From positions 1-47,408 of the forward strand of contig NZ_JAUNPC010000007.1 of assembly GCF_030536915.1 (NCBI RefSeq): DNA of 47,408 nucleotides, read 5' to 3'. A program made the position numbers and the translations under genes. The notes under the pieces were generated by a model. That model worked only from the letters and a program-made list of their open reading frames with translations. It had not been told where the DNA came from and did not search any database. The DNA comes from Paracoccus sp. (in: a-proteobacteria). GTDB taxonomy: Bacteria; Pseudomonadota; Alphaproteobacteria; Rhodobacterales; Rhodobacteraceae. This document shows, piece after piece, positions 10,501 through 16,763 of this stretch (within the stretch, counting starts at the first letter, position 1; every line of letters begins with the position of its first letter).

Positions 10501-10531
10501 GTGATCACATGCCATCGGCGTGTGATCACAC
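10501..10531 (-). promoter_or_regulatory. Paired GTGATCAC palindromes upstream of sucC
   Basis: Two GTGATCAC cores lie at 10501-10508 and 10522-10529, and their centres are exactly 21 bp apart, two helical turns. The distal one extends to the perfect 12-mer GTGTGATCACAC (10520-10531). The same core pair with the same 21-bp spacing is present upstream of sdhC. The zero-spacer arrangement differs from Crp/Fnr sites, which have six or four bases between half-sites. The binding protein is not identified. Confidence 0.75.
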
Positions 10532-10594
10532 TGTTGATGTGCCATTGTATGCAGCCGGTCGGGCGGGCTGTCCCGGTTCGTCCGCGCTAAAAGA

Positions 10595-10622
10595 AAGGGC
10601 CGCCCCGAAAAGGGCGGCCCTT
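10595..10622 (-). terminator. Intrinsic terminator of mdh
   Basis: Arms AAGGGCCGCCC and GGGCGGCCCTT with a short loop stand 26 bases after the mdh stop. On the minus strand the stem is followed by TTTCTTTT, a good T-run. It separates mdh from the sucC operon. Confidence 0.85.
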
Positions 10623-10647
10623 GCCGTTCAAAGGCAGAGGCGCGGGT

Positions 10648-11610
10648 TCAGGCCAGCGAGTTGTCGATGCCCTTGCAGGCTTCCACGAGGCCCTTCACCG
10701 CGTCGATGGACTTCTGCATCATCGTCTGCTCTTCGGCGTTCATCTCGATCTCGATGACCTTCTCGATGCCGTTCGCGCCGATCACGGTCGGGACGCCGAC
10801 ATACATGCCGTCAAGCCCGTAGGCGTTCTGGACATAGGCCGCGCAGGGCAGGACGCGCTTCTGGTCCTTGAGATAGGCTTCCGCCATCTCGATGGCCGAG
10901 GTCGCGGGGGCGTAGAAGGCAGAGCCGGTCTTCAGCAGGCCCACGATCTCGGCGCCGCCGTCGCGGGTGCGCTGGACGATGGCGTCCAGCTTCTCCTGCG
11001 TGGTCCAGCCCATCTTCACCAGGTCGGGCAGGGGGATGCCGGCGACGGTGGAATAGCGGGTCAGTGGCACCATCGTGTCGCCGTGGCCGCCAAGGACAAA
11101 GGCGGTCACGTCGCGCATGGACACGCCGAATTCCAGTGACAGGAAATGGCGGAAACGGGCGGAATCCAGCACGCCCGCCATGCCCACAACCTTTTCATGC
11201 GGCAGGCCGGAAAACTCGCGCAGCGCCCAGACCATCGCGTCCAGCGGGTTGGTGATGCAGATGACGAAGGCGTCGGGCGCATGGGCCTTGATGCCCTCGC
11301 CCACGGATTTCATGACCTTGAGGTTGATGCCCAGCAGGTCGTCGCGGCTCATGCCCGGCTTGCGCGGAACGCCCGCCGTCACGATGCAGACATCGGCGCC
11401 GGCGATGTCGGCGTAATCGTTGGTGCCCTTGAAGGTTCCGTCAAAGCCCTCGGACGGGCCGGACTGGGCGATGTCCAGCGACTTGCCCTGGGGCGTGCCC
11501 TCGGCGATGTCGAACAGGACGACGTCGCCCAGTTCCTTGATGGCGGCAAGGTGCGCCAGCGTGCCGCCGATCTGTCCGGCGCCGATGAGGGCGATCTTGG
11601 GACGGGCCAT
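10648..11610 (-). CDS. mdh: Malate dehydrogenase (NAD)
   Basis: Oxidises malate to oxaloacetate with NAD+. The 320-residue protein belongs to the LDH-like MDH type of alphaproteobacteria. It has GAGQIGG at residues 10-16 for NAD, the substrate loop with Arg83 and Arg89 ([11 protein letters not shown]), and the catalytic pair Asp149 (LDSARF, with Arg153) and His176 (GGHGDTM). The ATG at 11610 is preceded by a strong GGAGGA. The longest frame runs almost 350 codons further upstream on the minus strand through the TauE gene and is spurious. It has its own promoter-like sequence and terminator, so it is probably monocistronic although it sits at the head of the suc-odh-lpd block. Confidence 0.96.
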
Positions 11611-11642
11611 GGAGTCCTCCGTTTGGCTGATGGGTCGGGGCC

Positions 11643-14630: not shown

Positions 14631-14632
14631 GG

Positions 14633-14839
14633 ATGTCCCAGATCTACCGCCTGCTGACCGAGGACGACACCCCGGCCTTCTGCCACAAGATCAGCCTCGC
14701 GCTGTCCAAGGGCTGGATGCTGCACGGGTCGCCCTCGATCGCCTTCGATCCCGTCCGCGGCACCATGCGCTGCGCGCAGGCCGTCACCAAGGAAATCGCG
14801 GGTGATTATCACCCCGACATGAAGCTGGGACAGCAATGA
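14633..14839 (+). CDS. DUF1737-family small protein
   Basis: A 68-residue soluble protein beginning MSQIYRLLTEDD. The pattern of an N-terminal short segment, a central helix with SKGWMLHGSPS, and a C-terminal half ending RCAQAVTKEI matches the DUF1737 family of small alphaproteobacterial proteins with no known function. It starts two bases after the NnrU-like gene (the GAGGATG includes its ribosome site), and its stop overlaps the mch start by ATGA. Confidence 0.8.
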   Translation: MSQIYRLLTEDDTPAFCHKISLALSKGWMLHGSPSIAFDPVRGTMRCAQAVTKEIAGDYHPDMKLGQQ

Positions 14840-15870
14840 CCAAGACCAATCCGGGCCGCTTCTTCGAGGATTACCGCGTCGGCGAGGTGATCCGCCACGC
14901 CGTCCCCCGCACGGTCTCGGGCGGCGAGCGGGCGCTGTATCACGCGCTTTATCCCGCCCGCCATGCGCTGCATTCCTCGGACGAGTTCGCCCGCGCCTGC
15001 GGGCTGCCCGCCGCGCCGATGGACGACCTGATCGCCTTCCATTCCGTCTTCGGCAAGACCGTCCCCGACATCTCGCTGAACGCGGTGGCGAATCTCGGCT
15101 ATGCCGAGGGGCGCTGGCTGGAACCCGTCTGGCCCGGCGACACGATCCGCGCCGAATCCGAGGTGATCGGGCTCAAGCAGAACTCGAACGGCACCTCGGG
15201 CAATGTCTATGTCCGCACGCGCGGGCTGAACCAGCGCGACGTGCCGGTGCTGGAATATGTCCGCTGGGTCATGGTGCGGAAGCGCGAGGCCGCCAGCCCT
15301 GCGCCCGACGAGGTCGTGCCGCGCCTTGACCGCGTGGTGCTGCCGCAGGCGCTGGTGATCCCGGACGGGCTGGATTTCAGCGACTACGACTTCACCCTTG
15401 CCGGCGAGCCGCATCGCTGGGGCGACTACGGCGTGGGCGAGGTCATCGACCACGTGGACGCCGTGACGGTGGAAGAGGCCGAGCATATGCTGGCCACCCG
15501 GTTGTGGCAGAACACAGCGAAGGTCCATTTCGACGCGACCTTCCGCGACGACGGCGCCCGGCTGATCTATGGCGGCCATGTCATCAGCCTTGCGCGGGCG
15601 CTCAGCTTCAACGGACTGGCTAACGCGCAGATGATCGTGGCGCTGAACGCGGGCGCGCATGCGAACCCCTGTTTCGCGGGCGACACCGTGCGGGCCTGGT
15701 CCGAGGTGCTGGACCGCGCGCCGACCAATGCGCCGGGCATCGGCGCCCTGCGCCTGCGGCTGGTCGCCCACAAGGGCGAGCCGGGAGACCTGACGCTGAA
15801 GCGCGAGGACGGGCGCTACGCGTCCCATGTCCTGCTGGATCTCGACTACTGGGTGCTGATGCCGCTGTGA
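14836..15870 (+). CDS. mch: Mesaconyl-C1-CoA hydratase (beta-methylmalyl-CoA dehydratase)
   Basis: Interconverts mesaconyl-C1-CoA and erythro-beta-methylmalyl-CoA in the ethylmalonyl-CoA pathway for acetyl-CoA assimilation. The 344-residue protein has two consecutive MaoC-like hot-dog domains, and its N-terminus (NPGRFFEDYRVGEVIRHA) and length agree with the characterised Rhodobacter sphaeroides Mch. Notable segments are SLNAVANLGYAEGRW in the first domain and YGGHVISLARALSFNG in the second. Translation is coupled to the DUF1737 gene upstream by ATGA and to the EEP gene downstream by GTGA. Because mch is diagnostic for this pathway, its presence implies growth on C2 compounds without strict need for the glyoxylate bypass. 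Confidence 0.9.
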   Translation: MTKTNPGRFFEDYRVGEVIRHAVPRTVSGGERALYHALYPARHALHSSDEFARACGLPAAPMDDLIAFHSVFGKTVPDISLNAVANLGYAEGRWLEPVWPGDTIRAESEVIGLKQNSNGTSGNVYVRTRGLNQRDVPVLEYVRWVMVRKREAASPAPDEVVPRLDRVVLPQALVIPDGLDFSDYDFTLAGEPHRWGDYGVGEVIDHVDAVTVEEAEHMLATRLWQNTAKVHFDATFRDDGARLIYGGHVISLARALSFNGLANAQMIVALNAGAHANPCFAGDTVRAWSEVLDRAPTNAPGIGALRLRLVAHKGEPGDLTLKREDGRYASHVLLDLDYWVLMPL

Positions 15871-16736
15871 GGTGGCGCAGGCTCGGGCGCGCCGCGCTGG
15901 CCGCGGGGCTGGTGCTGCTGGCGGCCTCATACGCCGGGCGGCTGCACCCGGCGGGCGATTCGCTGGCGGTCGGGCGGCCGTTCCTTGCGGCGCTGCTGGT
16001 GCTGGGCGGGCTGGGCTTGCGCGGGCGTCCCGGCTGGCTCGCAGCCGCTGCGGGGGTGCTGGCGCTGGCGCCGATCCTCTGGGCGATGCGGCCGCATGCC
16101 CCGCCCGTGCCGCAGATCGTCGTCTACCAGAAGAACCTGCTGCATTCCGTCGATGACCCTTCGGGCATCGCCGCCGACATCCTGCAGGCCCGCGCCGACG
16201 TGGCGCTGCTGCAGGAGGTCAGCCGGACAAACGCGGGCGTGACAGGCGCGCTTTCCGGCGAGATGCCGCATCAGGTGGTCTGCCCGGCCCCGACGCCGGG
16301 CACCGTCGCGATCCTGTCACGCTGGCCCTTTGCCGCGGAACCGGATTGCGCCACCGGCGTCGGCATGGCCTCGGCCCGCGTGCTGGCCCCCGAAGGCGCG
16401 GTCACGGTCGTCTCCCTCCACCTCGGCTGGCCCTGGCCCTATGGTCAGGCCGCGCAGGTAGAGCGCGTTTTGCCGCAACTCGCTGGCTTGCCGGGGCCGG
16501 TGGTGCTTGGGGGCGACTTCAATGCCGTCCCGTGGTCGCGCATCGTGGCGCGCGTCGCCAGCGCCACTGGGACGGAACGGGCGGGCCCGGTGCGGCCGAC
16601 ATTCCTGCTTGGCGGGCTGCCCATCGCCATCGACCATGTCCTTGCGCCTGCCGACTGGCCGGCGGGGGCCGTCATGCGGCCGCGGTTCGGCTCGGACCAT
16701 CGCGGACAGGTGGTGAGCCTGAGCGGAAGGATGTGA
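15867..16736 (+). CDS. Membrane-anchored endonuclease/exonuclease/phosphatase-family protein
   Basis: Protein of 289 residues with three hydrophobic N-terminal segments (about residues 9-22, 37-50, 57-73), followed by an EEP-fold domain at about 80-289. The active-site motifs are visible: LLQEVS (metal Glu), SLHLGWPWP, GGDFNAVPWS and the terminal SDHRGQ. The domain faces either the periplasm or the cytosol; its substrate (nucleic acid or a phosphodiester lipid) cannot be told. The GTG start overlaps the mch stop. Its stop codon overlaps the first GTGATCAC site of the sdh operator, so the regulatory region begins inside this gene. Confidence 0.8.
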   Translation: MRWRRLGRAALAAGLVLLAASYAGRLHPAGDSLAVGRPFLAALLVLGGLGLRGRPGWLAAAAGVLALAPILWAMRPHAPPVPQIVVYQKNLLHSVDDPSGIAADILQARADVALLQEVSRTNAGVTGALSGEMPHQVVCPAPTPGTVAILSRWPFAAEPDCATGVGMASARVLAPEGAVTVVSLHLGWPWPYGQAAQVERVLPQLAGLPGPVVLGGDFNAVPWSRIVARVASATGTERAGPVRPTFLLGGLPIAIDHVLAPADWPAGAVMRPRFGSDHRGQVVSLSGRM

Positions 16737-16763
16737 TCACTGGTTGCGAGCTTGTGATCACAA
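16732..16763 (+). promoter_or_regulatory. Paired GTGATCAC palindromes upstream of sdhC
   Basis: Two GTGATCAC cores lie at 16733-16740 and 16754-16761, with centres exactly 21 bp apart. The proximal one extends to the perfect 12-mer TTGTGATCACAA (16752-16763). This duplicates the arrangement upstream of sucC. The proximal centre is about 142 bases before the sdhC ATG. I could not fix the promoter boxes, so whether the sites activate or repress is open. Confidence 0.75.

Follow-up and report, generated by a model that had tools for sequence, protein, structure and literature searches.

Which protein recognises the pair of palindromes that stands in front of both the suc and the sdh operon of a Paracoccus species? 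The question is raised by a 47,408-nucleotide stretch of DNA from Paracoccus sp. (RefSeq assembly GCF_030536915.1, contig NZ_JAUNPC010000007.1, positions 1 to 47,408), here called the window, in which two copies of the core GTGATCAC lie upstream of sucC and two upstream of sdhC. Our analysis suggests, with a probability that we put at roughly nine in ten, that two dimers of the activator AkgR, a GntR-type protein of the FCD subgroup encoded elsewhere in the genome, use each pair as a tandem operator, and that AkgR drives both operons. A preliminary description of the window had reported the pairs and postulated a shared regulator, which it left without a name.

Paired cores in the window and in the genome

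The four cores occupy positions 10501-10508 and 10522-10529 before sucC, and 16733-16740 and 16754-16761 before sdhC, as first described. The centre-to-centre distance is 21 base pairs (bp) before either gene, again as described, and in each pair one core forms part of a perfect 12-bp palindrome (GTGTGATCACAC at 10520-10531, TTGTGATCACAA at 16752-16763). At sucC, which is read from the minus strand, the core at 10501-10508 is proximal to the gene (104 bp from its start) and the core within the palindrome is distal. At sdhC, on the plus strand, the core within the palindrome is the proximal one (139 bp from the start), and the distal core at 16733-16740 overlaps the stop codon of an Exo_endo_phos open reading frame (ORF, 15867-16736), so that it is not strictly intergenic. 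With this amendment, the claim that the window contains no other intergenic core stands, since the fifth and last copy (28811-28818) is located inside an ORF of the PfkB family (27899-28882).

Five cores in the window compare with 0.73 expected, and none of 100 shuffled sequences reached this number. For two cores separated by 13 nucleotides (N13), a Markov estimate gives about 1e-5 occurrences per window and 8e-4 per genome, against two observed. These two are the only exact GTGATCAC-N13-GTGATCAC matches in an assembly of 228 contigs and 3.16 Mb that is 86% complete, and allowing two mismatches adds a single further N13 pair; exact pairs at gltA, acnA or icd, which had been anticipated, were not found in this assembly. 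The occurrence of paired cores is real and far above chance.

Conservation of the pair among relatives

We searched for two cores at any spacing from N0 to N30, with the reversed pattern as a control, in a family draw of 248 genomes that represent the Rhodobacteraceae with about one genome per genus. The pair is present in 222 of these genomes (221 of 247 sampled genera), compared to one of 248 for the reversed control. Within Paracoccus all 37 genomes, including that of the window, possess one or two pairs; 30 have two, and in the seven with a single pair it is the sdhC pair that has been retained. A one-mismatch N13 pair was found before sucC in six of six further cases, namely P. denitrificans (G312) and the five single-pair genomes that yielded a sucC.

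We examined 142 pairs as loci, comprising all 69 of the genus draw and 73 among the family-draw matches listed; two pairs of genome G187 lie outside this set. The target is sucC or sdhC in 130 of the 142; the arrangement is conserved at the orthologs of these genes. The spacing is nearly constant, N13 accounting for 63 of 73 family-draw pairs and 64 of 67 genus-draw pairs, and the distance from the end of the N13 pair to the gene start ranges from 97 to 151 bp for sucC and from 108 to 192 bp for sdhC. All six N12 pairs also precede one of these two genes. Other spacings (N5, N10, N14, N16, N19 and N23) account for nine pairs, none of them before sucC or sdhC; one N5 pair (L183, G247:C1:3357949-3357969), whose two cores are 5 bp apart, is directly upstream of the GntR regulator gene discussed below, and the remaining odd-spaced pairs may be due to chance. 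Three N13 pairs could not be assigned to sucC or sdhC: L083, which is 135 bp before an apparent sucA, L148, at a contig end, and L178. The last of these (L178:1501-1529, G102:C16:228293) is the third N13 pair of one family genome.

A further 53 N12 or N13 pairs (13 loci and 40 regions chosen among the matches listed, some from near relatives of each other) all precede sucC (29) or sdhC (24); previously used pairs were left out, as were some of those listed (e.g. G344, G325, G421, and one each of G455 and G356). Outside the family, no N13 pair was found in 24 class-level genomes, two of which have a pair at another spacing (N14, N10). An order draw gave a pair in 194 of 196 genomes, but its listed members all belong to the same genus or family, and it therefore provides no information from outside the family. 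As for the family genomes without a pair, G100 has a one-mismatch N13 pair, while a search for sucC gave nothing in G215 and a partial match of no more than 50-53% in G207 and G226; in these three the absence probably reflects an assembly gap.

The candidate regulator

The AkgR regulon of Rhodobacter sphaeroides is reportedly the subject of a 2015 study by Imam, Noguera and Donohue. We take AkgR to be the product of RSP_0981. According to a passage in PMC4344238, RSP_0981 belongs to the GntR family and is predicted to regulate sucCD (RSP_0967-6), sdh (RSP_0974-6) and sucAB-lpd (RSP_0965-62), and a passage in PMC6365646 gives GTGATCAC among the sites of the transcriptional activator AkgR. Since regulator, motif and targets are known in R. 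sphaeroides, the central question of the preliminary description had already been answered in print: the protein it left unnamed is very probably AkgR, to judge from the published motif and targets, the co-occurrence of the gene with the pair, and a core in the promoter of that gene.

The genome contains 14 matches to the FCD domain. One of them, the L058 protein (224 amino acids, gene at G000:C215:11548-12219), has both the GntR helix-turn-helix domain (PF00392) and the FCD domain (PF07729) above the cut-off, and a copy of GTGATCAC is situated 9-16 bp before its start codon. Of 69 Paracoccus loci, 68 have a core at this place near the start of the regulator's own gene; in 59 of 70 matches it is preceded, at a distance of 13 bp, by the sequence TTGAC. 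The domain composition, the presence of the core upstream of the regulator gene as well as of sucC and sdhC, and the suc and sdh targets together fit an AkgR-type regulon. In some genera the regulator gene is close to sdhB (1.5 kb in L100, 7-9 kb in L275 and L271), as is expected if RSP_0981 is close to RSP_0974-6. Its best named relatives are from Paracoccus species, none of the 80 loci compared being from an R. sphaeroides record, and a comparison with the PDB returned three GntR-type sequences, the best being McbR (4p9f, E-value 9.6e-18). Motif, targets, domains and synteny make the L058 protein the candidate ortholog of AkgR/RSP_0981.

With an ortholog defined as the best hit under 1e-60, at most 11 first-look candidates scored per genome and the tables read by eye, 222 of the 248 family genomes possess such an ortholog. 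Both pair and ortholog are found in 218 genomes, the pair only in four, the ortholog only in four and neither in 22 (Fisher P 1.3e-23); a looser cut-off of 1e-40 gives 219, 3, 6 and 20 (P 2.6e-21). Divergence does not explain the loss of the pair, because 19 of the 22 genomes with neither retain a sucC that is 69-80% identical to that of the window. In the 17 of them with a readable upstream region, no N10-16 pair with fewer than five mismatches was found in 15, the other two being G077 (three mismatches) and G217 (four). Conservation thus bears out well the earlier proposal of a regulator shared by the suc and sdh operons, acting at two sites two helical turns apart.

Periodic A/T patches and promoter geometry

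We aligned the upstream sequences anchored on the pair and oriented towards the gene, and calculated the power of the A/T content at periods of 9.5-11 bp, with 275 control windows for each set, which take in the 500 bp upstream. In both operons the A/T content peaks near +2, +12, +22, +32 and +42 between the pair and the -35 element, and is far lower in between. The power is 0.97 for sucC (59 sequences, largest control 0.17) and 0.56 for sdhC (65 sequences, largest control 0.36), above all 275 controls and 1000 random shifts in either case. The family draw alone gives 0.86 for sucC (31 sequences, largest control 0.24) and 0.63 for sdhC (30 sequences, largest control 0.28), and the further sequences give 1.23 (29 sequences, largest control 0.16) and 0.91 (24 sequences, largest control 0.55), respectively.

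At sdhC, 34 of 35 sequences from Paracoccus have a -35-like TGAC at +48 to +50. Of the 30 sequences of the family draw, 21 have it at +59 to +62, two at +48 to +50 and seven at neither position, and 18 of the 24 further sequences have it at +60 or +61. Compared with most other genera, the sdhC -35 element of this genus is thus probably displaced by about one helical turn. At sucC a T at +48 is conserved in 53 of 59 sequences; a general promoter scan of the sucC upstream regions found no consistent -35 position, so that the assignment of +48 rests on this column.

In the window, these data place the probable sucC -35 element (TTTGCT) at 10448-10453 on the minus strand, separated from the pair by the 47-bp stretch 10454-10500 in which the patches occur among relatives. 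On the plus strand, the equivalent stretch before sdhC is 16762-16808, followed by a probable -35 element (GTGACA, 16809-16814) and, after a spacer of 16, a probable -10 element (TAGAGA, 16831-16836), the best match of the promoter scan. By eye the ladder of patches is weak in this particular sdhC promoter, which cautions against regarding it as essential. If transcription starts about 35 bp after the beginning of the -35 element, the cores would lie near -86 and -107 and the nearest two patches near -41 and -51. The alpha C-terminal domain of RNA polymerase binds UP elements at about the positions of these two patches.

Proposed mechanism and alternative explanations

We propose that two AkgR dimers bind the two cores on one face of the DNA, two turns apart, at a site about 47 bp (approximately five turns) upstream of the -35 element and on the side of the helix where an A/T patch recurs every 10 bp or so. 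From there AkgR would attract RNA polymerase or stabilise it at the promoter, perhaps by way of alpha C-terminal domains seated on the patches nearest to the -35 element and with some aid from minor-groove contacts or curvature of the A/T tracts, and transcription of suc and sdh would rise together. At the regulator gene, the single core that follows TTGAC by 13 bp, just before the start codon, would allow AkgR to block its own promoter, i.e. negative autoregulation. The sequences themselves show the sites, how these are conserved and spaced, their co-occurrence with the regulator gene and the core in its promoter. Binding as dimers, cooperativity, contacts with the polymerase, autorepression and activation in Paracoccus are inferred, and the role of AkgR as an activator is taken from the literature. 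A more speculative extension, which we consider somewhat less probable than its opposite, is that the whole architecture is fixed across the family for both operons: AkgR dimers 21 bp apart, five patches from +2 to +42, and a -35 element displaced by roughly one whole turn (for sdhC from +48 here to mostly +59 to +61), the ladder serving to wrap the DNA or to guide alpha C-terminal domains along one face. If so, two operons with unrelated promoters could be driven in a constant ratio.

The single core is no commoner in the genome than expected (50 copies against about 51), so the part of the original proposal that survives comparison with the random rate is the pair, which is far above it, and not the 8-mer. 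Several results weigh against the assignment to AkgR. Outside Paracoccus a core in the regulator's own promoter is found in only 12 of 28 loci (L094-L121) and two of 11, and no sdh match was found within 10 kb of the GntR gene of L272 (Cereibacter). A clear ortholog is missing from four genomes with the pair (G079, G156, G174 and, with a borderline hit of 2e-57, G093), and four have the ortholog but no pair, one of these with a one-mismatch pair and three without a proper sucC. On a sucC tree of 57 rows the co-occurrence is phylogenetically clustered: the best tree requires eight changes, only two independent pairs fall on supported branches, and the sign test is not significant. Finally, passages in PMC11323563 and PMC4344238 name CceR, and one in PMC4344238 names NtrC, for sdh in R. 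sphaeroides, and AkgR therefore need not act alone.

The clustering, together with the fact that co-occurrence was scored for the L058 protein alone among 14 FCD matches, leaves room for another FCD protein or a second regulator at the pair, with the L058 protein a mere companion. We regard this as very improbable in view of the core that recurs in the promoter of this very gene throughout Paracoccus, and of the genomes with neither, nearly all of which keep sucC while the readable ones mostly lack even a degenerate pair. Still less credible is a Crp- or Fnr-type protein, an assignment that the preliminary description had rightly resisted: TGTGATCACA does read as two Crp half-sites (TGTGA and TCACA) joined, but in the four cores of the window the half-sites abut without the spacer characteristic of Crp sites, the genus and family searches were made with this spacerless core, and it is a GntR gene that tracks the pair.

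How the pair acts is a separate matter. GntR proteins are mostly repressors, and the core at the regulator's own gene is inside the promoter, so the pair could in principle be a repressor operator or a roadblock; this is unlikely, given that at suc and sdh some 47 bp, or a further turn, separate it from the probable -35 element downstream, which leaves it clear of the core promoter, and that AkgR is called a transcriptional activator in a passage of PMC6365646. The ladder is more ambiguous. That it reflects only intrinsically curved DNA or shared descent, without contact to AkgR or RNA polymerase, is a distinct though lesser possibility: the sets consist of related and in some cases closely related sequences, the window's own sdhC promoter shows the ladder only weakly by eye, one control of the second sdhC set comes as high as 0.55 against 0.91, and phased A/T tracts bend DNA by themselves. 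Against this, the ladder is present, when aligned on the pair, in two promoters that are not homologous, it exceeds all 275 control windows in each of six tests, and it recurs in previously unused sequences.

Single sites and gene organisation

In keeping with its chance frequency, the single core was dropped as a marker of the regulon. The longer form TGTGATCACR occurs at 13 sites outside the pairs, eight of which are inside long ORFs; promoter-like positions are those at the regulator gene (L343) and at four others (L333, L339, L340 and L346). At L346:1502 (G000:C228:41967-41976) a perfect TGTGATCACA is located 92 bp upstream of an ORF with a TAT signal and a molybdopterin oxidoreductase domain, beside a divergent ORF, and it is possible that this is a further AkgR target or a chance occurrence. 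At L333:1502 (G000:C12:15914-15921) the core is 11 bp before an ORF whose start resembles, by eye, that of a regulator of the Rrf2/IscR type.

The suc cluster is on the minus strand. Its first gene, sucC (9204-10397), encodes the beta subunit of succinyl-CoA synthetase (Pfam ATP-grasp_2 and Ligase_CoA), and the remainder (910-9207) comprises an ORF at 8677-9207, sucD (7774-8658), sucA (4698-7742), sucB (3104-4801) and lpd (910-2346), all on the same strand and probably co-transcribed; further ORFs lie between 2392 and 3104. The ORF between sucC and sucD codes for 176 amino acids, has no Pfam match and by eye a lipoprotein-like start. On the plus strand are sdhC (16900-17289, Sdh_cyt), sdhA (17725-19527, FAD_binding_2) and sdhB (21670-22449, Fer2_3), and an ORF for an ArsR-family regulator (22842-23189) is found between sdhB and the gene for the ATP synthase a subunit.

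Comparison with known systems

The segment of the tricarboxylic acid (TCA) cycle from 2-oxoglutarate to fumarate can now be tied to one candidate activator across the family, including Paracoccus, for which a passage in a 2024 paper (PMC11323563) suggests control of these TCA genes by something other than CceR. The analysis supplies a named candidate regulator and the exact bases to mutate, and the phased ladder offers a natural test set for how a GntR activator far upstream (near -86 and -107 by our estimate) signals to RNA polymerase. The extent of the system (221 of 247 sampled genera), the near-constant tandem spacing, the ladder and the one-turn shift may be new; our literature search, which did not reach the primary 2015 AkgR paper, found no description of the tandem or the ladder.

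Two other regulators invite comparison. PS417_07240 of Pseudomonas simiae, from the deoxyribonate cluster, is a GntR-like protein proposed in a passage of PMC6365646 to bind the same GTGATCAC palindrome; it belongs to another pathway, has one conserved palindrome reported, and according to that text is 32% identical to AkgR. CceR of R. sphaeroides and Paracoccus likewise controls central carbon metabolism, with sdh included in R. sphaeroides (passages in PMC4344238 and PMC11323563), but is of the LacI family and has the motif [A/G/T]GTT N6-8 AAC[A/C/T] (PMC4344238). The closest counterpart is the AkgR (RSP_0981) regulon of R. sphaeroides, which, as far as the passages cited describe it, has in common with the system of the window a GntR-family activator, the suc and sdh targets and the GTGATCAC core. 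What the present analysis may add to this is the extent of the system in Paracoccus and the family, the tandem with its N13 spacing, the ladder of A/T patches, the displaced -35 element and the TTGAC-N13-core arrangement at the regulator gene.

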